A stretch of DNA of 64,000 nt from a virus, in the IMG/VR virus record IMGVR_UViG_3300042147_000020, positions 174,800 through 238,799 of that record. The stretch is one strand, 5' to 3'. The notes under the pieces were generated by a model that saw nothing but the letters and a program-made list of their open reading frames with translations, did not search any database and was not told the origin of the DNA. Shown here in pieces: positions 1-8,365 of this stretch; the stretch's first letter is position 1; each line of letters begins with the position of its first letter. The translations under genes were made by a program, and so were the position numbers.

Positions 1-942
1 GTGAACGGTGGTGACCCTTTGATGATGCCTCCGAGTTACTACTGGTCGCTGATTGACATCTTGGACCGTCATAACTGTCCTGCCACGATTGCGTTTACCA
101 CTAACCTGTGGGCGTTCTATAAAAAGCCTGAGCTGTGGGTAGACTTGTTTCGTCATCCGCGTGTGGGCGTTGCTACTTCGTTTCAATACGGTGACAAACG
201 ACTCAAGGGTGACTTGAAACCGTTCACCGAAGCTGAATTCTGGGCCTGCTCTGATCTGATGTTGGAGCTGGTGGGTTATCGACCGACGTTCATTGCGGTC
301 ATTGACAAAGACAATGAAGACTCTGTACTCGACACGGTGTTACTGGCTGCTCGTATGGGAGTAGAGGTCAAGCTGAATCACGCACTGGCTTCAGGTCCAG
401 AGGTGGACTATAAAGGTGTGGTGATGGGGAACCAAAACAAGTTCTTCACTCAAGCTGACATCTACCGACACTACTTGGCCATTTATGACGCTGGGTTAGA
501 GGAACACGAGTACAACACTAAACAGATGACCCGTCGTCTGCGTAATGGTGCAACCACCTGTCCGTTGGCTCGTAACTGCGACCAACACATCCGTGCATTA
601 CAACCGGGTGGTGGTAACTACTTCTCGTGTGGAGCTTTCGGGGATGACAATGAATACCCTATCGACTTTCAGCGTGAGATGTCTGGCGAGTTCTTTACTC
701 CGTTAGAGAGTCAACCTGAACTGTTCAGTATGAAAGACGCCTGTGCTGCGTGTCCGATGTTTGCGATCTGCAACGGGTGCAAGAAGACCATTGCCGACAC
801 CAAACGTTTGGGCCTAACTGAACACCACTGTCGCACAATGAAATCGTTGGCTCCTCGGATCATCGAGGCTAACGGTCTAACGGGTCAGTTAGAACCCACT
901 CCGTATGAAGATGAAACTCCCGTTTTGATTGCCCGAGGTTAA
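1..942 (+). CDS. Radical SAM/SPASM-like protein, 5' truncated by window edge
   Basis: The reading frame is open from base 1 and has no ribosome site, so the visible GTG is not taken as the start. The protein begins at a GGDP motif, which corresponds to the GGE motif that follows the second beta strand of radical-SAM barrels; the CxxxCxxC cluster-binding loop must lie before the window. The C-terminal third carries a cysteine-rich region: C-P-L-A-R-N-C near residues 188-194 and a Cx2Cx5Cx2C block near 249-261, with a further Cys about 16 residues later, as in SPASM/twitch auxiliary-cluster domains. It is followed 1 base later by a second radical-SAM gene. Inference: an S-adenosylmethionine radical enzyme acting on a peptide or protein. 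Substrate unknown. Confidence 0.75.
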   Translation: MNGGDPLMMPPSYYWSLIDILDRHNCPATIAFTTNLWAFYKKPELWVDLFRHPRVGVATSFQYGDKRLKGDLKPFTEAEFWACSDLMLELVGYRPTFIAVIDKDNEDSVLDTVLLAARMGVEVKLNHALASGPEVDYKGVVMGNQNKFFTQADIYRHYLAIYDAGLEEHEYNTKQMTRRLRNGATTCPLARNCDQHIRALQPGGGNYFSCGAFGDDNEYPIDFQREMSGEFFTPLESQPELFSMKDACAACPMFAICNGCKKTIADTKRLGLTEHHCRTMKSLAPRIIEANGLTGQLEPTPYEDETPVLIARG

Positions 943-943
943 A

Positions 944-1915
944 ATGAAGCCTGTTGTCCTCTCCGTGAATCCATGGTACTTCTGTAACTTTCGCTGCTCG
1001 TTCTGTTATCTGACCGAACAACAACTCAGTGACCGTAAACTATTACCGCTAGAACGGTTGGCGGAGATGGTAGACGAAGTACAAGCCGCAGGTTACACCG
1101 TTGAACACATCGACATCTATGGGGGTGAAGTGCTGTTACTGCCCGCTGATTACCTCAACGGGATGAAGCAAGTCTTCCACGACCGAGGGATTGACGATCT
1201 GTGTCTGATCACCAACCTGTCTCTGGTGAATGACGTAGCACTCGATGATGACTACGAGTTGTCGGTGTCGTACGATTTCGAAGCCCGTGAGAAACATGAG
1301 AAAGTCTTTGACAACATGCTTGCCTTACCTCGACAGTTTAACGTGTTGAGTTTGGTGGGTCGTAAGTTCTTGGACGTCGTTACTCCAGACGAATACGTAC
1401 ACACCCTGAACCTGCTCTCCCAGCTCTGGTGTGTGGAACTTAAGCCGTACAGCGAGAACCAAGCCAACGCTGACGCAGTGTCGTTCAAAGAGTTCGAGGA
1501 CTTCGTGTGGGCAGTGATCAAACACCCTGACCGTGAGTTCTATCTGGAGAACGAATCCCTGATTCGCAAAGCGGCTGAAACCAAGACTCGTAATGCGTTC
1601 AGTGACAATCACATCTACATCACCCCTGCGGGTCGTTACGCGGTACTGGAGTTTGATGCCAACGACCGTGAGTTCTTCTTGGAGCTGGATGACTTAGCTG
1701 GTTATCAAGCCTGGTGTGCACTTGAAAAAGAGCGGGTTACCGCCAATGAGTTTTGCAGTAAGTGTCAATTCAAAGGCGGGTGTTTATCCGAACACCTAAG
1801 AGACGTTAGGTCGTTAGAGAACTCCTGTAACGGGTTCCACGACCTGTTAGTGAGGTGGGTAGATGAAGGTAGTCCAACACAGACAGAGACTCGAGATCAC
1901 GCTCGATCTGTTTAA
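944..1915 (+). CDS. Radical SAM protein with SPASM-like C-terminus
   Basis: The radical-SAM signature CNFRCSFC (CxxxCxxC) lies near residues 14-21 of the 323-residue product, followed by a YGGE motif near residue 64 that is known to bind the SAM amino group. Near the C-terminus a Cx2Cx5C group and a later Cys (CSKCQFKGGC, then ENSC) resemble half of a SPASM/twitch domain that holds an extra 4Fe-4S cluster. An upstream in-frame TTG at 929 is possible, but the ATG at 944 sits 6 bases after a GAGG ribosome site and just after the stop of the preceding gene, so it is preferred. The 3' end overlaps the next gene by 53 bases, which suggests coupled translation. SPASM proteins usually modify ribosomal peptides or enzymes; the target here is unknown. 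Confidence 0.85.
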   Translation: MKPVVLSVNPWYFCNFRCSFCYLTEQQLSDRKLLPLERLAEMVDEVQAAGYTVEHIDIYGGEVLLLPADYLNGMKQVFHDRGIDDLCLITNLSLVNDVALDDDYELSVSYDFEAREKHEKVFDNMLALPRQFNVLSLVGRKFLDVVTPDEYVHTLNLLSQLWCVELKPYSENQANADAVSFKEFEDFVWAVIKHPDREFYLENESLIRKAAETKTRNAFSDNHIYITPAGRYAVLEFDANDREFFLELDDLAGYQAWCALEKERVTANEFCSKCQFKGGCLSEHLRDVRSLENSCNGFHDLLVRWVDEGSPTQTETRDHARSV

Positions 1916-2879
1916 AGGTTGTGGTCATTCCTGCGGTGGCTGCATGATTGATAAAAGTTTGGGTGGAGACGTGAAAGATCTCCCCGAACTCTTAGCCCTG
2001 ATTCAAGAAATGGTCGGGGTGGGTTACGTAGCGTTTGACCTCGGTGTAGGACCGACGGACTACATGACTGCTGATAACCGTCTCGAAGTGATGCAGAACC
2101 GAACCTTCCAAGAGATGGCTCAACAGTTTCATCAGGTAACATTCAACGCAGCCTTCCTCGACACTAACCTGCTCAACTACGGGGTGATGTGTTACGAGAT
2201 TGATTGTGCAGTACCAGACAAGCCGATTCGCTTTCTGATCCCAGCCGTACCGGCTCATTTCAAGAATGAGAAGTTCGGCTTGATGATTAAAGAAAAGTTG
2301 GAGTACATCAAAAAGAACCTGATCGTAGCTCGACTGAACGAAGCAGGTTTTGTGGTGAACTGTACACAGGAAACTGTGGACGAGAAGTTTGAGGAGCACC
2401 TACGTAATGGGTTTGATATTGAATTCGTGGTGGACAAAGACGACATCCTCACCATCCCTTACGGACGAGCCCCAAACAAAGACTTGCTGGTGGCGCAGAA
2501 TGTTCGTCGAGTGTCTCACCGAATCAGTTCTTTCTATGCGGGGCTGAATGGGGAAGACGAACGTCGACGTAACCCTGATCTCCACTACGACACTGGGACA
2601 ATGGTTAACCTGTTGTACACCGGGGGTAAACTGTACTGGGTTCCTTTCCTCAAAGACGACTGTCCGTTCATAGACGACGACTTTGTGATCCCTCGACCTT
2701 GGACTATGGCTAACCTGTTAGAAGCCCGTAATCGCGCTCGTGATAGCTCCTTGGACTATCTGGAAGGCAGTGAGTGTATGGAGTGTCCTCACCTCGGGAG
2801 CTGTGCCGAGAAAGGCATCACCAGCATCATGCAGAAGTTGTCGATTCGGGATTGCTTAGTGGGGTTGGCCGATGTTTAA
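1863..2879 (+). CDS. Divergent radical SAM protein (GPTD variant)
   Basis: This 338-residue protein has CGHSCGGC (CxxxCxxC) near residues 20-27 and a C-terminal Cx2Cx5C group (CMECPHLGSC) with a further Cys 16 residues later. Where a GGE motif is expected after the second strand it has VGPTD, shared with the next gene but not with the two genes before it, so genes three and four form a subfamily. The start ATG lies inside the preceding gene and has a GAGGTG ribosome site about 5 bases upstream, supporting a true 53-base overlap. An iron-sulfur radical enzyme is well supported by the cysteine pattern; the reaction is not known. Confidence 0.8.
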   Translation: MKVVQHRQRLEITLDLFKGCGHSCGGCMIDKSLGGDVKDLPELLALIQEMVGVGYVAFDLGVGPTDYMTADNRLEVMQNRTFQEMAQQFHQVTFNAAFLDTNLLNYGVMCYEIDCAVPDKPIRFLIPAVPAHFKNEKFGLMIKEKLEYIKKNLIVARLNEAGFVVNCTQETVDEKFEEHLRNGFDIEFVVDKDDILTIPYGRAPNKDLLVAQNVRRVSHRISSFYAGLNGEDERRRNPDLHYDTGTMVNLLYTGGKLYWVPFLKDDCPFIDDDFVIPRPWTMANLLEARNRARDSSLDYLEGSECMECPHLGSCAEKGITSIMQKLSIRDCLVGLADV

Positions 2880-3918
2880 CGAATATGGCGTGATCTCTGT
2901 CAACCTCACGATGGAGATCCTAAAAGGCTGTGGGTTCAGTTGTAGTGACTGTGCCGTACAGAAAGACTTCACTACCTCAGACATTCCTCCAGAGGACTCA
3001 CAGGACCTCCTAGGGCTACTGGATGACCTGCGTGTCAATGAAGTTCGTCTGTTTGAGTTCACTGTAGGTCCAACTGACTTTATCAGTGCCCAGAATGGCT
3101 TCGAGACCTTTAAGCATCCGTTAGTCTTGGGATTAGCTGAACGGTTTGAATCCATGACGTTGTCGTTGGCAATGTTGAGTGACAACCGCTTGGTGGAATT
3201 GGGTGGGGTGATTGACCGTATGATCCCCGAGAAGAAGTTCCGGTTGGTGATCCCTGCCACCCTAAAGAACTTACAGAAACCCAAGTACGTGGAAGCCTTA
3301 CGTCGCCGAGTACACTTGTTGCGCGACAGCCTCCATTCTGCGAAGTTCTACCAGATCTACTTGAACTCCAACATGGTACAGGAGAACCTGAACGAACTGT
3401 CGTACGAGACGGTGTCGAACTCAGGGGCGGCTGACTTAGGGGTTCGTACCACGTTGGAGCACGGCTTCGGTCATGCCCGAGCAGGCTTTCAAAACTTGTT
3501 TAACCGTGATCGGTTCATCTACGACCTGAAGCTCTACGTGGAGCGCAGTAAGGTGCTGAAGGACACCCGGTACCAACGTAAGCTGATTCCGATAACGACC
3601 GATGCGTTAGAGCTGACGTACCGTGCAGGCAAGCTTTATTACACACCGGTGGTGATTGAGAAGTTCCACATCTTTGATCCGGTGTTTGAGATCCCTAAAC
3701 CGTGGACAGCACAAGCGGTACTCGATTTCAAAGAGCAGTTGTACTACCGCATGTTAGAAAAATACGTGGTACACCCATTATGTAGAGATTGTTGCTTTGT
3801 CAACACCTGTGCTTTGGGGGATCATCATGTGGTCATGGATTACCTGAAACACGATGAGTGTTTGACCGACATGAAGAACCGCCACGATATGGATCGAAAG
3901 GATACCCACGGTGAGTGA
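2872..3918 (+). CDS. Divergent radical SAM protein (GPTD variant), paralogue of the preceding gene
   Basis: The 348-residue product has CGFSCSDC near residues 22-29, the VGPTD motif near residue 65 and a C-terminal CRDCCFVNTC (Cx2Cx5C) with another Cys about 18 residues later. The order and spacing match the preceding gene, and both share features such as PKPWT/PRPWT before the last third. The start overlaps the preceding stop by 8 bases. Four radical-SAM genes in a row with the same C-terminal cysteine plan suggest successive duplication and division of labour on related substrates. Function beyond radical SAM chemistry is inference. Confidence 0.8.
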   Translation: MFNEYGVISVNLTMEILKGCGFSCSDCAVQKDFTTSDIPPEDSQDLLGLLDDLRVNEVRLFEFTVGPTDFISAQNGFETFKHPLVLGLAERFESMTLSLAMLSDNRLVELGGVIDRMIPEKKFRLVIPATLKNLQKPKYVEALRRRVHLLRDSLHSAKFYQIYLNSNMVQENLNELSYETVSNSGAADLGVRTTLEHGFGHARAGFQNLFNRDRFIYDLKLYVERSKVLKDTRYQRKLIPITTDALELTYRAGKLYYTPVVIEKFHIFDPVFEIPKPWTAQAVLDFKEQLYYRMLEKYVVHPLCRDCCFVNTCALGDHHVVMDYLKHDECLTDMKNRHDMDRKDTHGE

Positions 3919-4339
3919 ACATAAAGAGTATCAACGCCTGTACGCCCAACTGGTCACAGATCACCCCGATGACTTTGCCAAGATGGAGATCGTCGAGTCT
4001 GAGGAGCTGGTGGAGAACGCTAAGCACTACTTCCGCGAAGCCACCTTCCCGCTGATCTATCCAGCGAAGTCAATGGCTGTCGCTGTAATCTACGCCCTGT
4101 TACTGGAAGAGACTTACGGGTTACATCCGTTTGACTCCCTTAAAGACCCAGACCTATTCTTAGGTCAAGACCCATACTTCCGTCCGTATGACCAACATCC
4201 CCGTGAATACGATCAATTGATCTGGTGGGTGGCGGAACAACCGAACTGGAAAGAAATGGGCTGGGCACCAAAGACAGTTGAATACTTCTACCTTGAGTGC
4301 ACTGAAGCTGGTATCAGTAAAATCAACGAAGGGGTTTGA
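3911..4339 (+). CDS. Unknown protein between radical-SAM and oxygenase genes
   Basis: A 142-residue acidic, aromatic-rich protein that I do not recognise. It starts at a GTG overlapping the preceding gene by 8 bases, with AAAGGA about 8 bases upstream. No cysteine motif, signal peptide or membrane segment is visible. Its fixed place between the radical-SAM genes and the 2OG-oxygenase genes makes it a candidate partner, for example a peptide-recognition or adaptor subunit, or less likely a substrate. That role is inferred from position only. Confidence 0.7.
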   Translation: MSEHKEYQRLYAQLVTDHPDDFAKMEIVESEELVENAKHYFREATFPLIYPAKSMAVAVIYALLLEETYGLHPFDSLKDPDLFLGQDPYFRPYDQHPREYDQLIWWVAEQPNWKEMGWAPKTVEYFYLECTEAGISKINEGV

Positions 4340-4340
4340 A

Positions 4341-4898
4341 ATGAAATATGTTGAACCGTGGAGCACTCAATTAGCCCACTTCAATGTCGCAGACTTAGTC
4401 GACTTGGGTGCCTTGCGTGACGAGATCTTCAATCTACACTGTTTGACCGAAGGGGACGACCCAGGACAGAAGTGGATCACCTCTGAGTTCGTACCTGAAA
4501 TTATCCGCATGCGTGATGAACTGATTACCCCACGGGTGATTCAGTACGCCAAAGAGTTGTGGGACTACGACATCCCCAAGATTGAAGTAGAGACCTCGGG
4601 TAAGTGGATTCCTGAAGGTGAAGGACTGTTCCCCCACGTTCATGGTGGTTCGTGTATCAGTACGATCTTTTACCCCTCACCAACTAACTTCGGGTTGAGT
4701 TTTTTCGACCCTCGTTCCAATGCTGGCCGGGGTTATCCGAAAGAGATCCGTGATCGGTTCTTTAAAGCCTTCCCGATTGTTCCTGCGGCGGGGGACATTT
4801 GGATCTTCCCAAGTTACTTACAGCACAGTGTGTCGCACGTCCAAGAGAACGTCCGGTTGAGCATGCTGTGTGAATACTACTTGCGGGAGAACGTTTGA
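4341..4898 (+). CDS. 2OG-Fe(II) oxygenase-like protein, copy 1
   Basis: A 185-residue protein matching the plan of the small putative 2-oxoglutarate/iron oxygenases (TIGR02466 / 2OG-FeII_Oxy_5 type): an HVHGG motif near residue 98 preceding an IFYPS strand, then a GDIWIFPSYLQHSV segment whose His would be the third iron ligand, and an R-L-S strand whose Arg would bind 2-oxoglutarate. The first metal motif is HxH rather than the more usual HxD. The ATG at 4341 follows AAGGGG and is preferred to an upstream ATG at 4278 inside the previous gene. It is the first of three tandem paralogues. Likely role: hydroxylation or another oxidation of a peptide or protein; the substrate is unknown. Confidence 0.75.
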   Translation: MKYVEPWSTQLAHFNVADLVDLGALRDEIFNLHCLTEGDDPGQKWITSEFVPEIIRMRDELITPRVIQYAKELWDYDIPKIEVETSGKWIPEGEGLFPHVHGGSCISTIFYPSPTNFGLSFFDPRSNAGRGYPKEIRDRFFKAFPIVPAAGDIWIFPSYLQHSVSHVQENVRLSMLCEYYLRENV

Positions 4899-5464
4899 TG
4901 GAACTGTTCCGTCCTTGGCAAACCAGTATTGCCAGAATCAACGTGGCTGAGTTGTGTGACTTGGATCAGCTTACTCAAGAGATCCTAATTGTCTCTGCCG
5001 GCGGCACTGTAGCCGTCCCACAAGACGCTACACGCGACGATCCGTTCGTAGGTGGCATCGTTACTCTACGTGACGACGTAATCACCCCCAGAGTCATGGA
5101 GTACATTCGCACAGAGTACGGTCTCAACTGTGATCCTGAAACGGTTGCTATGGAAACGTGGGGGATGAACATCGCTCCCGGTAGTGACTTGGAAACACAC
5201 ATCCACGGTTTGTCCAACTTCACGACGGTGTTCTACCCCTGTGAGTCAGACGCTCGCTTAGTACTGGTTGATCCTCGTTTGAATGCAGCACGAGGGTTCT
5301 CTAAGTCTTTGCGTGACCGTAACTTCGGTAACCTACGAGTTGACCCTAAACCCGGAGACTTGTGGATCTTCCCAAGCTTCGTCCCCCATTCTGTGACGTC
5401 AGTAGGTAACGAGTTCCGCCTGTCTTTGGTGAACGATTACTTCCTAGACCCCACCCTCGATTAA
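4898..5464 (+). CDS. 2OG-Fe(II) oxygenase-like protein, copy 2
   Basis: Second of three tandem paralogues (188 residues). The conserved N-terminus (PW-x-T-S then an AELCDL helix) is followed by HIHG near residue 106 before a VFYPC strand, and by GDLWIFPSFVPHSV with the distal His and a downstream R-L-S-L. The ATG at 4898 shares its A with the TGA of the preceding gene (TGATG), which is a translational coupling arrangement. Divergence between the copies is high outside the metal-site motifs, so they probably act on different sites rather than simply boosting dose. That is inference. Confidence 0.75.
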   Translation: MELFRPWQTSIARINVAELCDLDQLTQEILIVSAGGTVAVPQDATRDDPFVGGIVTLRDDVITPRVMEYIRTEYGLNCDPETVAMETWGMNIAPGSDLETHIHGLSNFTTVFYPCESDARLVLVDPRLNAARGFSKSLRDRNFGNLRVDPKPGDLWIFPSFVPHSVTSVGNEFRLSLVNDYFLDPTLD

Positions 5465-5475
5465 GAGACCTGAAC

Positions 5476-6030
5476 ATGGAACTGATTCAACCTTGGAACA
5501 CGTCGATCCTTAAAGCGAACGTGTCCCACATGTGTAACGTGGAAGCGATTGCCGATGAGATCCTGTCACTACACAGTCTCTCCCCACAACAGTCCACCAC
5601 GCAGTACAAAATCACCCCAGAAGAGTTCCCAGCTCTGTGTGACTTCCGTGACCGGGTGGTAACTAACCTGGTGAAAGAATTCGTCAAACAAACGATGCGT
5701 TTCGACCTGACACAGTTCACCGTCGATACGTTCGGTAAGTGGTTCGAGAAAGGCATGGATCTTTCTCCGCACACTCACGGTAGCACTGGGATCACCTCTG
5801 TGTTCTACCCGGCTGACTACAAGTCGGGAATGACCGTGTACGATCCGCGTGGTAATGCTTGCCGTGGCTACCCGCGTCAAATCCGGGACGACTACTTCGC
5901 TCCCTTTTACGTCTACCCCAAGGCTGGTGATTTGATCATCATGCCGTCGTTCTTGCAACACTACGTCCCCACCGTAGAAGACGACCTGCGTCTGTCGTTG
6001 ATCAACGATTACATGTTCCCAAGCGTATAA
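5476..6030 (+). CDS. 2OG-Fe(II) oxygenase-like protein, copy 3
   Basis: Third tandem paralogue (184 residues): PWNTS at the N-terminus, HTHGST near residue 98, SVFYP strand, a DPRGNACRGYPRQIRDDYF stretch also present in the other two copies, then GDLIIMPSFLQHYV and R-L-S-L. It is the last gene of the operon and is followed at once by a UUCG-loop terminator. The consistent HxH...H...R pattern supports a metal-binding cupin-like fold in all three copies. The radical SAM genes upstream suggest a shared modification pathway. Confidence 0.75.
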   Translation: MELIQPWNTSILKANVSHMCNVEAIADEILSLHSLSPQQSTTQYKITPEEFPALCDFRDRVVTNLVKEFVKQTMRFDLTQFTVDTFGKWFEKGMDLSPHTHGSTGITSVFYPADYKSGMTVYDPRGNACRGYPRQIRDDYFAPFYVYPKAGDLIIMPSFLQHYVPTVEDDLRLSLINDYMFPSV

Positions 6031-6033
6031 ACA

Positions 6034-6064
6034 GAGGAGGGGTTCGTCCCCTCCTTTTATGCCG
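6034..6064 (+). terminator. Hairpin terminator after the radical-SAM/oxygenase operon
   Basis: Stem GGAGGGG / CCCCTCC around a TTCGT loop, followed by TTTTATGCCG. It has the TATGCC tail shared by most terminators in this window. Confidence 0.85.
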
Positions 6065-6109: not shown

Positions 6110-6787
6110 ATGTTTGAAGTCGTGGATAAGGGCGCTATTAAAGAGAAACAGCGCAAGTTGAAAGAGCTGGGCCTGTATGAAGGGAATGTGGACGGTATCT
6201 GGGGACCTCTGAGTCAAGCGGCTTGGGATAAGACTCAAGGTGACAAAGTTGTGTCTGCTCCGTTTGATACCACTCGGATCATCTGGGCCACCAAGGTCTC
6301 CAAAGAGTTCATCCTCAAAGTACGGGACATCGCCAAACGTCTTGAGATGCCCACAGAGGGCTCTAACTGGTTGATGGCGTGTATGGCCTTCGAGACCGGT
6401 GAAACCTTCTCACCGACGATCAAGAACGGTGCTGGCGCTCCTTACTACGGACTGATCCAGTTCGGTGAAGCAGCAGCCAAAGATTGTGGCACTACGGTGG
6501 CCGCTCTGGTAAAGATGACTGCTGAGCAACAGCTCGACTACGTATACAAGTTCTTCAAGCCGTACACCGGTAAGCTGAAGACCCTCAGCGACGTTTACTC
6601 TCGCATCATCTGGCCAGTGGCCGTGGGTAAGTCAGAAGACTACGTGATCTTTGACACGAAGGTACGTCCTACTGCGTACGTTCAGAACAAGGGTCTGGAC
6701 ATCAACAAGGACGGCCTCGTCACCAAAGCTGAATGTGCGGCGAAGGTCCAAGAAAAATACGTGCGTGGACTGAAGTTCGTCGCCTAA
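6110..6787 (+). CDS. Endolysin: peptidoglycan-binding plus lytic glycosidase-like domain
   Basis: A 225-residue protein with an N-terminal peptidoglycan_binding_1 module (about residues 8-45, with the typical GLYEGNVDGIWGPLSQAAW arrangement) followed by a lysozyme/transglycosylase-like domain. Features of the second domain are FETGETFSP near residues 93-101, GLIQF near 116, and an MTAEQQLDYVYKFF helix. An EF-hand-like calcium loop, DINKDGLVTKAE, lies near residue 198. Known members of this class cut the glycan strands of the cell wall at lysis, or locally at entry if carried in the virion. No signal peptide is visible, so export would need a holin or entry with the particle. It is the first gene after a terminator and precedes a likely head protein. 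Confidence 0.85.
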   Translation: MFEVVDKGAIKEKQRKLKELGLYEGNVDGIWGPLSQAAWDKTQGDKVVSAPFDTTRIIWATKVSKEFILKVRDIAKRLEMPTEGSNWLMACMAFETGETFSPTIKNGAGAPYYGLIQFGEAAAKDCGTTVAALVKMTAEQQLDYVYKFFKPYTGKLKTLSDVYSRIIWPVAVGKSEDYVIFDTKVRPTAYVQNKGLDINKDGLVTKAECAAKVQEKYVRGLKFVA

Positions 6788-6799
6788 TGGAATCTATAC

Positions 6800-8365
6800 A
6801 TGAGTAAGCTAGCCGCCTACCTCCCCTCGATGGAGGAAGAACAATACGAACCAGAAATCCGTGACGATCACACTGAGTTCTCTCAGTTCGACGTGACTAC
6901 CACTGGTGCTGAAGTTGACCAAGCACTCGCCGACCACAGTACCACTGGTGAGATCATCGCCACGTTGGAAAGTATCCTCGACGACATCGAAGCTACTGAC
7001 AGTCTGACTCCGCAGTCGCGTGTGTTTATCGGCCATTCGATTCAGTCGGTACAACACCGCATCGGCTTGGTTGTTCGCACGCCTTCGATGGAAGCGAATG
7101 ATGAAGACGGTCGCCAGATCTCCATGGAAGGGATCGCCCAAGGGTTGGCTAAACTCTGGGAAGGCACTGTTGAACTGATCCGTAAGATCCTTCGCAGCAT
7201 CCGTGACTTCTTCGCCACGATCCTCGGCTTCGGTAAACGTAAAGAGAAGCGCATCAAGTATCAACTGGAGAAGGCCAAGGAAGGTGGCAACGATGCGTCG
7301 ATCTCCAAGCTGGCTGAGAAGAACCTGCTCAAGCACTTGAAAGACGTGTCTTCGGTACAGAAGGTTCTCGACAATCTGGTAGCTACGCCACTGGGGAAGG
7401 AACGTCCAGAGCAACTGGTTCTACTGTCTCCAGCGTCAGCCCAGATCGTGGTGCGTGAAAGCGATGGTCAGGTGGACAGTTCTCGTCCAATGACGGTCAA
7501 CGGTCAAGACATCGTGGCCATGCGTAAGAAAGACGTGCAGGCCGTGAGTCATATGTCCTTGGGTCAGGTCAAACACGCTCTGATTACTGCCATGGTGGTT
7601 AACGGTGGTCGTACGTTCCTTACTAAGGAGAAGGACTTCGTCTTGATGTCTCACGAAGACGTCAACGAGATGGTGTGGGACACTGCGTTCCGGGGTAAGG
7701 AAGCCCGTCAGAAAGGTAAGGAGCTGTCAGCACTGCTGATGAAGATTGCTAATAAAGCTGAGAAAGCTTTTACTAGCGTCGATGCTTTTAACCGACACAA
7801 TGTCAACATCTCAGACGAGTTGTTAAACGCCACTCGCATTGAGCGCGCCGCTGTCTTCAAGCTCTTCCGTGAGTTCGTTGGTAAGGGCGACATGGTACCG
7901 TTGGGTTCAGCAATGTTGCGCGTAGTGGATCATCATCCTGAACACTTGCAGATTGCCAAGTTCGATCACATTCCTGTGGTCAGCGAGAACATCGGTAAAG
8001 TCGTGAAGATCAAGTTCCCACAATACGGGGAAGTGAAGAAAGCGGCTGACGGTATCGTGACGGTTACACTGTTGAGTAACTTCAACGGTTCAATCGACGC
8101 TGCACTCAAAGGCTTCGAGGACGTACTGAAAGTCTACGAGCGGTTACAAGCGTGGGCGATTAGTAATGCGAAGGGTGATAACATCATCCAACGTCAGGTC
8201 AGTAGCTGCATCCGTGAAATGTACGACGAGCCAGTGAAGTACTTCAGTTCGTACATCCGTGCGGTTGGCGTAATGGAAACAGTCGTGATTGGTTGGGGTG
8301 ATTCTATCACTCACCCGTTGAGCAAGCTGACAGATTCCAAGAACCTGATGGCTGAACTCGCCTAA
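6800..8365 (+). CDS. Probable internal head/virion protein with propeptide
   Basis: A 521-residue protein with no enzyme motif. Its N-terminal 110 residues are acidic and contain three S-M-E tripeptides (about residues 10-12, 96-98 and 108-110), followed by an amphipathic segment EGIAQGLAKLWEGTVELIRK and a basic region. Inner-body and internal head proteins of jumbo phages have this plan, and the phiKZ prohead protease is known to cut after S-x-E; the tripeptides are therefore candidate processing sites. It follows the endolysin by 12 bases and ends at a terminator. The virion role is inferred from the organisation and should be regarded as likely, not shown. Confidence 0.6.
   Translation: MSKLAAYLPSMEEEQYEPEIRDDHTEFSQFDVTTTGAEVDQALADHSTTGEIIATLESILDDIEATDSLTPQSRVFIGHSIQSVQHRIGLVVRTPSMEANDEDGRQISMEGIAQGLAKLWEGTVELIRKILRSIRDFFATILGFGKRKEKRIKYQLEKAKEGGNDASISKLAEKNLLKHLKDVSSVQKVLDNLVATPLGKERPEQLVLLSPASAQIVVRESDGQVDSSRPMTVNGQDIVAMRKKDVQAVSHMSLGQVKHALITAMVVNGGRTFLTKEKDFVLMSHEDVNEMVWDTAFRGKEARQKGKELSALLMKIANKAEKAFTSVDAFNRHNVNISDELLNATRIERAAVFKLFREFVGKGDMVPLGSAMLRVVDHHPEHLQIAKFDHIPVVSENIGKVVKIKFPQYGEVKKAADGIVTVTLLSNFNGSIDAALKGFEDVLKVYERLQAWAISNAKGDNIIQRQVSSCIREMYDEPVKYFSSYIRAVGVMETVVIGWGDSITHPLSKLTDSKNLMAELA

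Follow-up and report, generated by a model that had tools for sequence, protein, structure and literature searches.

Several radical-SAM (rSAM) genes stand side by side at the start of the window, the 64,000-nucleotide stretch of viral DNA analysed here, and the locus raises the question of what such a set of enzymes acts on in a phage. Genes for rSAM enzymes have been reported in the jumbo phages pPa_SNUABM_DT01 (PMC8541153), 332-Vera (PMC12390700) and S13 (PMC11898562) and in the Campylobacter phage IBB_35 (PMC3322345). In 332-Vera, eight of them lie within the structural cluster, an arrangement termed highly unusual (PMC12390700). In the accessible portions of these four papers the enzymes are given as unexplained or assigned to repair or metabolism, and the substrate candidate, core motif and cassette described below are not named. 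DT01 and S13 (SURPRISE13) carry this cassette. The reading favoured here, with confidence somewhat above even, is that the window holds the 3' half of a conserved cassette whose enzymes alter the chemistry of the C-terminal tail of P, a protein encoded further upstream. The enzyme families, P and its motif, their linkage, the orthologous gene set and the fibre neighbourhood were computed; the modification, its chemistry and a role in attachment are inferred.

The window opens in the middle of an operon on a phiKZ-like jumbo-phage contig (record G000, 238,799 bp). Its edge truncates R3, whose true start at G000:174626 lies 174 bases ahead of the window. Upstream and window parts combined comprise six rSAM enzymes, one JmjC/cupin oxygenase, three PF13759 oxygenases and P, the likely substrate, and all six rSAM genes of the record belong to the cassette. 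Its features are the following, with G000 coordinates outside the window and window coordinates within it.

G000:169671-170195, upstream of the window: C, cupin/JmjC protein (Pfam JmjC_2)
G000:170196-171233, upstream of the window: R1, rSAM enzyme
G000:171238-171789, upstream of the window: P, substrate candidate
G000:171801-172538, upstream of the window: B, partner protein
G000:172522-173586, upstream of the window: U
G000:173580-174593, upstream of the window: R2, rSAM enzyme
About G000:174597-174622, upstream of the window, in the gap between R2 and R3: terminator-like hairpin
1-942, + strand (whole gene G000:174626-175741): R3, SPASM-type rSAM enzyme (Pfam Radical_SAM 2.9e-12; clade R3 in the tree)
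944-1915, + strand: R4, rSAM enzyme of the CNFRCxFCYLT class with C-terminal CX2CX5C...C (Pfam Radical_SAM 4.6e-10; clade R4)
1863-2879, + strand: r-type divergent rSAM enzyme of the GCxxxCxGC class (CX3CX2C and CX2CX5C; HHalign to the R family 98.2%)
2872-3918, + strand: second r-type divergent rSAM enzyme (HHalign of the r family, cysteine motifs; phrog_31457 1.6e-6)
3911-4339, + strand: u, conserved 142-aa protein of unknown function with a YPAKSYxVAxxYA motif (phrog_20737 1.1e-37)
4341-4898, + strand: O1, 2OG-Fe(II) oxygenase-like (PF13759 2.7e-9; HxH...H...R invariant)
4898-5464, + strand: O2, 2OG-Fe(II) oxygenase-like (PF13759 1.2e-8; HxH...H...R invariant)
5476-6030, + strand: O3, 2OG-Fe(II) oxygenase-like (PF13759 2e-7; HxH...H...R invariant)
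6033-6057, + strand: intrinsic-terminator-like hairpin at the 3' end of the cassette (-17.7 kcal/mol, z -4.3, then a T run)

A sequence-only reading had described four adjacent rSAM genes, three tandem oxygenase-like proteins and one unknown protein at this locus, and all are present, the oxygenases belonging to 2OG-FeII_Oxy_5 (PF13759). It had also placed them in a single operon with a single terminator. The closing hairpin is real, but because a second terminator-like hairpin lies between R2 and R3, the cassette probably forms two transcription units. The composition of the cassette does not differ notably from that of the rest of the window (GC 0.502 vs 0.513). The u gene is also present in cassettes of other phages and of predatory bacteria.

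All six rSAM enzymes of this phage contain the N-terminal CX3CX2C motif, and a C-terminal CX2CX5C followed by one more cysteine is invariant in the alignment of the four encoded in the window, in agreement with what had been claimed for their C-termini. CX3CX2C was found in 218 of 221 relatives of the R enzymes and in all 114 relatives of the r-type enzymes, and CX2CX4-6C in 219/221 and 110/114, respectively. In R1 the full pattern C-X10-G-X4-C ... CX2CX5CX3C...C is invariant. R4 and the r-type enzymes are without the first two cysteines of the full SPASM pattern and are therefore twitch-like. A tree resolved R1 to R4 as four orthologous clades spanning unrelated phages and predatory bacteria. 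The two r-type enzymes had no match among Pfam or NCBIfam models; profile-profile comparison placed their family as rSAM (98.2%, E 3.6e-14), and the one at 1863-2879 is 66% identical to a pPa_SNUABM_DT01 protein. The failure of family placement that would have refuted the initial proposal did not occur, Pfam having placed two rSAM enzymes, PF13759 the oxygenases and profile comparison the r-type enzymes. The NCBIfam models nearest to R1 are those of cyclophane, ranthipeptide and sulfatase maturases, every maturase match being far under its cut-off; the sulfatase-maturase model ranks near the top for both R1 and R3, again under the cut-off.

In the O proteins, H99, H101, H162 and R172 are invariant in 12 relatives. 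C matches JmjC_2 (PF08007) above the cut-off, and its profile aligns with that of the histidyl hydroxylase MINA. It thereby resembles the JmjC ribosomal oxygenases (MINA, NO66, YcfD), a class that hydroxylates histidine and arginine, both invariant in the core of P. C differs from them in being shorter and also small-cupin-like, and there are no test data on its 2OG dependence.

That a precursor might lie upstream had already been supposed, and extension in the 5' direction yielded P, a protein of 183 aa encoded 3 kb upstream of the window, with linkage to rSAM genes holding in both directions. Its C-terminus reads CHTSCHGACHGSRGRR. The final sixteen residues of the family form the motif CHxSCHxSCHxSRGRR, near-invariant over divergent bodies, with an identity in the P alignment of 81% over the last 16 columns vs 34% elsewhere. 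The predicted model is confident except for the tail, which is disordered. P has no Pfam match and no PDB fold match (best E 2.1), and in BFVD it matches only uncharacterised viral proteins, P of Atu_ph07 among them. A known adhesin or tail-fibre fold for P was rejected for want of a PDB match, only the neighbouring genes being fibres. B was likewise rejected as an RRE protein, its predicted model matching no PDB fold, RRE-like or otherwise. Because neither B nor P has a fold match, recognition and adhesion are both without structural backing. P is nevertheless very likely the substrate of the enzymes, an inference made without any modification having been observed.

The tail could instead be a metal or cofactor site. 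Its three Cys-His pairs, which offer up to six ligands and formally make two CX3CH motifs, would then coordinate Zn, Fe, Cu or a heme-like group, and the task of the rSAM and 2OG enzymes would be to make or attach that cofactor, in the manner of HydE and HydG for hydrogenase, and not to crosslink the peptide. The strict invariance of the tail cysteines and histidines in 135 unique sequences fits this idea, and metal cofactors made by assembly lines of several rSAM enzymes are known. However, the alternate serines and the RxRR end, which simple metal binding does not need, are almost as conserved, the C-terminal cysteines of the rSAM enzymes are of the SPASM type found in peptide modifiers, and no cofactor-carrier gene was recognised. 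This explanation is considered unlikely.

The tie between P and the enzymes extends well beyond this phage. A search with the tail motif returned at least 120 viral stretches, with P in frame in 119, and a control pattern with swapped residues gave no match. Where 4 kb of downstream sequence was available, an rSAM gene followed in 55 of 55 stretches and B, usually directly after P, in 54 of 55. In the reverse direction, P was directly behind R1 in 70 of 80 loci found via R1, most exceptions being contig ends or inserted genes; R1 has 346 relatives in the same viral collection. Six isolated phages, namely pPa_SNUABM_DT01, Atu_ph07, Phosso, FLC6, FLC8 and SURPRISE13, contain R1, R3 or B, the set being identical for each of the three genes, and every one carries P (6/6); in 50,697 records R1 and R3 were found only in P-carrying phages. 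The cassette is conserved in related phages as a linked set, the outcome that the first proposal had staked itself on. Searches of phage records by tblastn, with P of the short tandem-P group and with P of a marine phage, gave no match, so that at this sensitivity neither group has an isolate among those records. Among cellular genomes, the motif was found in only 9 of 369 from Bdellovibrionota; universality in predators was rejected, and the cassette is therefore not essential to predation.

Tail-fibre or virion genes lie immediately 5' of the cassette in nine of the ten phages scanned. In Atu_ph07, the virion-protein cluster is published as CDS 170-215, and P is gp170, its first gene (numbering checked at gp215); in the part of the paper available this assignment is at cluster level only, without per-protein mass spectrometry for gp170 (PMC6102473). 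In four predator genomes, the cassette occurs in chromosomal surroundings near prepilin fibres that carry an endosialidase chaperone domain (Peptidase_S74). These neighbours recall the Bdellovibrio MAT fibres (PMC10769870), and the phage neighbours, with tail-fibre domains and chaperone-like ends, recall phage S74/G2-chaperone fibres. P itself, in contrast, does not belong to the MAT proteins and is of no known fold, and the MAT fibre paper does not mention rSAM enzymes (PMC10769870). P is inferred to be a virion or fibre component, which appears likely. The original suggestion of a virion protein or a host defence factor as target thus gains indirect support for its first half, from the tail-fibre neighbours and the Atu_ph07 cluster, and none for its second.

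The closest known systems are the rSAM/SPASM RiPP maturases (ranthipeptide PapB; cyclophane YhhB, FxsB and GrrM; sactipeptide and SCIFF enzymes), which share with the cassette the CX3CX2C core, the C-terminal auxiliary-cluster cysteines, the position beside a short conserved Cys-rich core and the best model scores of R1. The differences are that the cassette enzymes all score under the family cut-offs, that one substrate is served by four or more distinct rSAM enzymes, and that the core is joined to a folded domain of about 170 aa. Of the criteria for a RiPP cluster, P meets that of a gene-encoded precursor with a conserved core beside modifying enzymes; an RRE-recognised leader and genes for leader removal and export were not found in the cassette. 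No PqqD/RRE Pfam domain occurs among its proteins, and family searches recognised no protease or transporter among the window-cassette genes. P might still serve as a carrier that is cleaved to release a small modified peptide, a true RiPP directed at the host cell or at competing phages. The conserved, core-like C-terminus and the adjacent rSAM and oxygenase tailoring enzymes are as expected of RiPP clusters, but the lack of a recognised protease, exporter or RRE, a conserved segment reaching the extreme C-terminus of a folded domain, and a position behind tail-fibre genes and bordering a virion-protein cluster make release improbable. QhpD and the anaerobic sulfatase maturase offer a different parallel, as SPASM rSAM enzymes whose target is and remains a functional protein; there, one enzyme makes one type of change on a cellular enzyme, whereas several rSAM enzymes and oxygenases lie here near phage tail genes. 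Least probable of all is that the substrates are nucleotides, cofactors or host metabolites and that P merely lies beside the enzymes without relation to them, a reading for which the annotated dihydrofolate reductases of Burkholderia cassettes speak, against the near one-to-one linkage of R1 and P in both directions, the SPASM-type auxiliary cysteines, the confinement of R1 and R3 to P-carrying phages and the recurrence of the gene set near fibre proteins in predator chromosomes.

If the tail of P is remodelled in place, P would be made as a folded domain of some 170 residues ending in a 16-residue disordered tail, a RiPP-like core fixed to a large protein. The R1-R4 core and the extra r-type enzymes could then equip the repeated Cys/His units with carbon-centred modifications, thioether or carbon-carbon crosslinks being the likeliest products, and C and the PF13759 oxygenases may hydroxylate histidine, arginine or serine of the tail, with B as a likely carrier or recognition factor. 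Finished P would belong to the virion in association with its fibres, and the tip of P, rigid, cationic and derived from Cys/His, would touch the Gram-negative envelope at attachment; whether P has such a role is an inference that could fall either way. The same cassette is present near tail-fibre-like prepilins in some predatory bacteria, which suggests a shared attack tool. Only tentatively can a new category of attachment structure be proposed, in which a fibre-associated protein bears a genetically encoded Cys/His/Arg tip, crosslinked by radical chemistry and hydroxylated, that a conserved four-rSAM pathway produces and that is common to unrelated large phages and predatory bacteria for contact with the Gram-negative envelope.

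No earlier description of this kind of system, the cassette together with the P tail, was found, and the literature searched held nothing relevant on the core string or on phage RiPP/rSAM systems (bioRxiv and most subscription papers were outside its scope). The proposal offers a candidate substrate both for phage rSAM genes that earlier papers left unexplained or termed highly unusual and for the phage 2OG oxygenases encoded beside them. If it is true, phages remodel their own virion proteins via multi-step radical chemistry, for which no precedent was found either, and the four rSAM enzymes and their partner B would be new peptide-modifying catalysts. The mass of a 16-residue target is measurable in purified virions.

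A few other occurrences were set apart. The Ralstonia phages RP12 and RP31 have rSAM genes, yet are absent from the R1 and R3 matches and were excluded from the counts. IBB_35 is absent from these matches as well, and Campylobacter phages with six rSAM genes, also absent from them, may be a separate case. Cellular matches in Frankia, Pseudoalteromonas and Bordetella were put down to chance and rejected. The cassettes of Burkholderia contain two additional genes, both annotated as dihydrofolate reductases.

The source virus record comprises 238,799 bp and the window takes in its bases 174800-238799, and therefore the left edge of the window cuts the operon. The remaining cassette genes were found upstream of the window, directly 3' of two tail-type genes. 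The genes listed in the sequence-only reading are present on the + strand, packed tightly or overlapping, so that its account of an rSAM (radical SAM) and oxygenase cassette is confirmed and extended by an upstream half. The peptide precursor that it supposed might lie upstream has a counterpart there in protein P, as far as sequence can show.

Cassette genes and neighbours, in order
upstream of the window, first in the cassette: C, cupin/JmjC protein, 174 aa
upstream of the window, after C: R1, rSAM enzyme 1
upstream of the window, after R1: P, putative substrate protein, 183 aa
upstream of the window, after P: B, its partner, 245 aa
upstream of the window, after B: U, further cassette protein, 354 aa
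upstream of the window, after U: R2, rSAM enzyme 2
record 174597-174622 (sampled stretch L003:9598-9623), between R2 and R3: terminator-like hairpin, -18.6 kcal/mol
after the hairpin, where the window starts: R3
window 6110-6787, first gene downstream of the cassette: 225-aa protein, weak peptidoglycan-binding domain PF01471, below cut-off
window 6800-8365: phiKZ-type internal head protein, PF12699, 2.5e-14

The hairpin suggests that the cassette comprises two transcription units. The record holds exactly six rSAM genes, every one inside the cassette, and a single copy of the P motif. The 225-aa protein is possibly an endolysin, and the internal head protein just downstream of the cassette fits a phiKZ-like jumbo phage.

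P ends in NTICHTSCHGACHGSRGRR. In homologues from Pseudomonas, Burkholderia, Agrobacterium and Sinorhizobium phages, this C-terminus is nearly fixed and the bodies are divergent. A DNA pattern encoding CHxxCHxxCHxxRxRR-stop matched at least 120 stretches in IMG/VR; among the matches listed, 119 lie in frame at the end of a protein. These proteins measure 102-364 aa, and contig ends truncate the shortest. A control pattern with C and H swapped gave zero matches. Bacterial and archaeal genomes totalling 257 Gb gave 19 matches (16 of them in-frame P). Invariance of C, H and R in 135 unique P proteins is built into the search pattern, but Ser at -13, -9 and -5 and Gly at -3, which the search left unconstrained, are also nearly fixed. 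Alignment identity is 81% in the final 16 columns and 34% in the rest. The AlphaFold model of one P has a confident body and a disordered C-terminal tail. The P fold also occurs in two or three proteins of 504-660 aa from gut Myoviridae sp. ctijX18 (BFVD A0A8S5USJ8, A0A8S5USJ7; E ~1e-4).

Among loci picked by the motif and counted only where flank sufficed, an rSAM gene lies within 4 kb downstream of P in 55 of 55 and B is present in 54 of 55; an rSAM gene directly upstream of P was found in 59 of 67, and C in 52 of 67. In the reverse direction, IMG/VR yielded 346 R1 relatives, and P lies directly behind R1 in 70 of the best 80. Among the loci without P, the sequence stops within 250 bp in L179, L195, L212 and L240 and together with the match in L237; L181 clearly breaks the pattern. 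In L202, L203, L204 and L206, P's usual place directly behind R1 (just after 7038) is taken by a glycine-rich protein of 308 aa that recalls the gp38 adhesins of T2 type. Across 50,697 phage records, R1, R3 or B occur in only six phages, all six with P. A tree of 76 rSAM proteins resolves four clades, R1-R4, and a separate expanded clade of the divergent r type. Each R1-R4 clade spans gamma-, beta- and alphaproteobacterial jumbo phages, environmental phages and predatory bacteria; that the four enzymes stay together across this range suggests, by inference, four distinct steps on one substrate. In a variant group (loci L010, L033, L041, L083, L093 and similar), two tandem short P genes (~126 aa each) are followed by r B r r or r B r r r; R1-R4 are mostly absent from the flanking sequence covered.

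R1-R4 match rSAM models of Pfam/NCBIfam. No Pfam or NCBIfam model matched the two divergent r proteins (window 1863-2879 and 2872-3918), both of which retain CX3CX2C and a C-terminal CX2CX5C...C. Their relatives keep CX3CX2C in 114 of 114 and the auxiliary-Cys pattern in 110 of 114, and an alignment of the r profile to the R family scores 98.2%. R1 has a complete SPASM pattern with all seven Cys; the models closest to it, among them those for ranthipeptide (PapB), cyclophane (YhhB, FxsB) and sulfatase maturases, all score far below cut-off. The three window oxygenases belong to PF13759 with HxH...H...R invariant. C is assigned to JmjC_2 by Pfam (5e-9, above cut-off) with HxD...H conserved, and its profile search returned quercetin-dioxygenase cupins and, more weakly, the MINA histidyl hydroxylase. 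Two genes annotated as dihydrofolate reductases lie between rSAM genes of Burkholderia phage cassettes (L006:14858-16035, L009:14771-15984) and may provide a reductase step. Among the products of predator cassettes is an rSAM protein that also has a B12-binding domain (L157:17172-18911 by Pfam; L160:3569-5281 by a similar sequence start only), possibly a further methyl-type tailoring step.

In the proposed mechanism, B, and perhaps U, would present the tail of P, R1-R4 and the r enzymes would join its CH units to one another through thioether or C-C bonds, and C and the oxygenases would add hydroxyl groups to residues of the tail; the arginine-rich tip remodelled in this way might then bind the Gram-negative envelope. 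What is established is limited to the gene level; no modification has been demonstrated and the chemistry is open. As the cassette genes revealed neither an RRE nor a function in leader cleavage or export, P is termed RiPP-like rather than a RiPP. The cassette is read as a proposed case of rSAM-dependent peptide or protein maturation, which is known in kind. In the portions of the sources available, the six rSAM genes of pPa_SNUABM_DT01 were interpreted as repair or metabolism (PMC8541153), eight inside the structural cluster of 332-Vera were termed highly unusual (PMC12390700), and those of SURPRISE13 were given as accessory or of unknown function (PMC11898562). In pelagimyophages, a variable region with the abbreviation HRC was seen to contain rSAM cassettes (PMC7029224). 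Searches of the open-access literature for the core string and phage RiPP/rSAM, bioRxiv not covered, returned no earlier account of either P or the cassette. The enzyme families are already known; the multi-rSAM pathway on a fibre-associated phage protein, the core motif and the P and B folds appear new.

A virion protein had been proposed as one target, and the neighbourhood supports this indirectly, within what genomic context can tell. Ten diverse phages were scanned; in nine of them the cassette is preceded by a gene that matches a tail-fibre, baseplate or virion family, and several of these genes encode Peptidase_G2-like or phrog_22593 C-termini. In Atu_ph07, virion proteins supported by MS are concentrated in CDS 31-76, 170-215 and 284-329 (PMC6102473). 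This phage encodes P as gp170, and the numbers used in the paper and in RefSeq coincide at gp215 (major head protein); the CDS 170-215 cluster therefore begins at P and leaves out B and the rSAM genes that come next, from gp169 down. This position is suggestive of P in the virion but indirect, as it rests on the cluster and not on data for P itself.

Bdellovibrionota genomes gave nine motif matches. Two sampled predator loci lie amid chromosomal genes, L160 adjoining cbb3-type oxidase and ABC genes and L157 a 3-hydroxyacyl-CoA dehydrogenase. Prepilin-like proteins that carry a Peptidase_S74 endosialidase chaperone at the C-terminus occur near the cassette in four of five predator genomes examined, at loci L157 (contig G004:C7), L158 (G002:C14), L245/L160 (G007:C66) and L159/L247 (G003:C38; ~13 kb from the cassette in L247). 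The S74 chaperone is shared with one subfamily of Bdellovibrio MAT adhesive fibres (PMC10769870). As fibre neighbours accompany the cassette in phages and predators alike, a fibre-tip role for P is preferred. The N-methylation motif of the prepilin-like proteins was scored in 3 of the 4 genomes, and the union of prepilin and Peptidase_S74 in one protein is an unusual pilin/tail-fibre hybrid.
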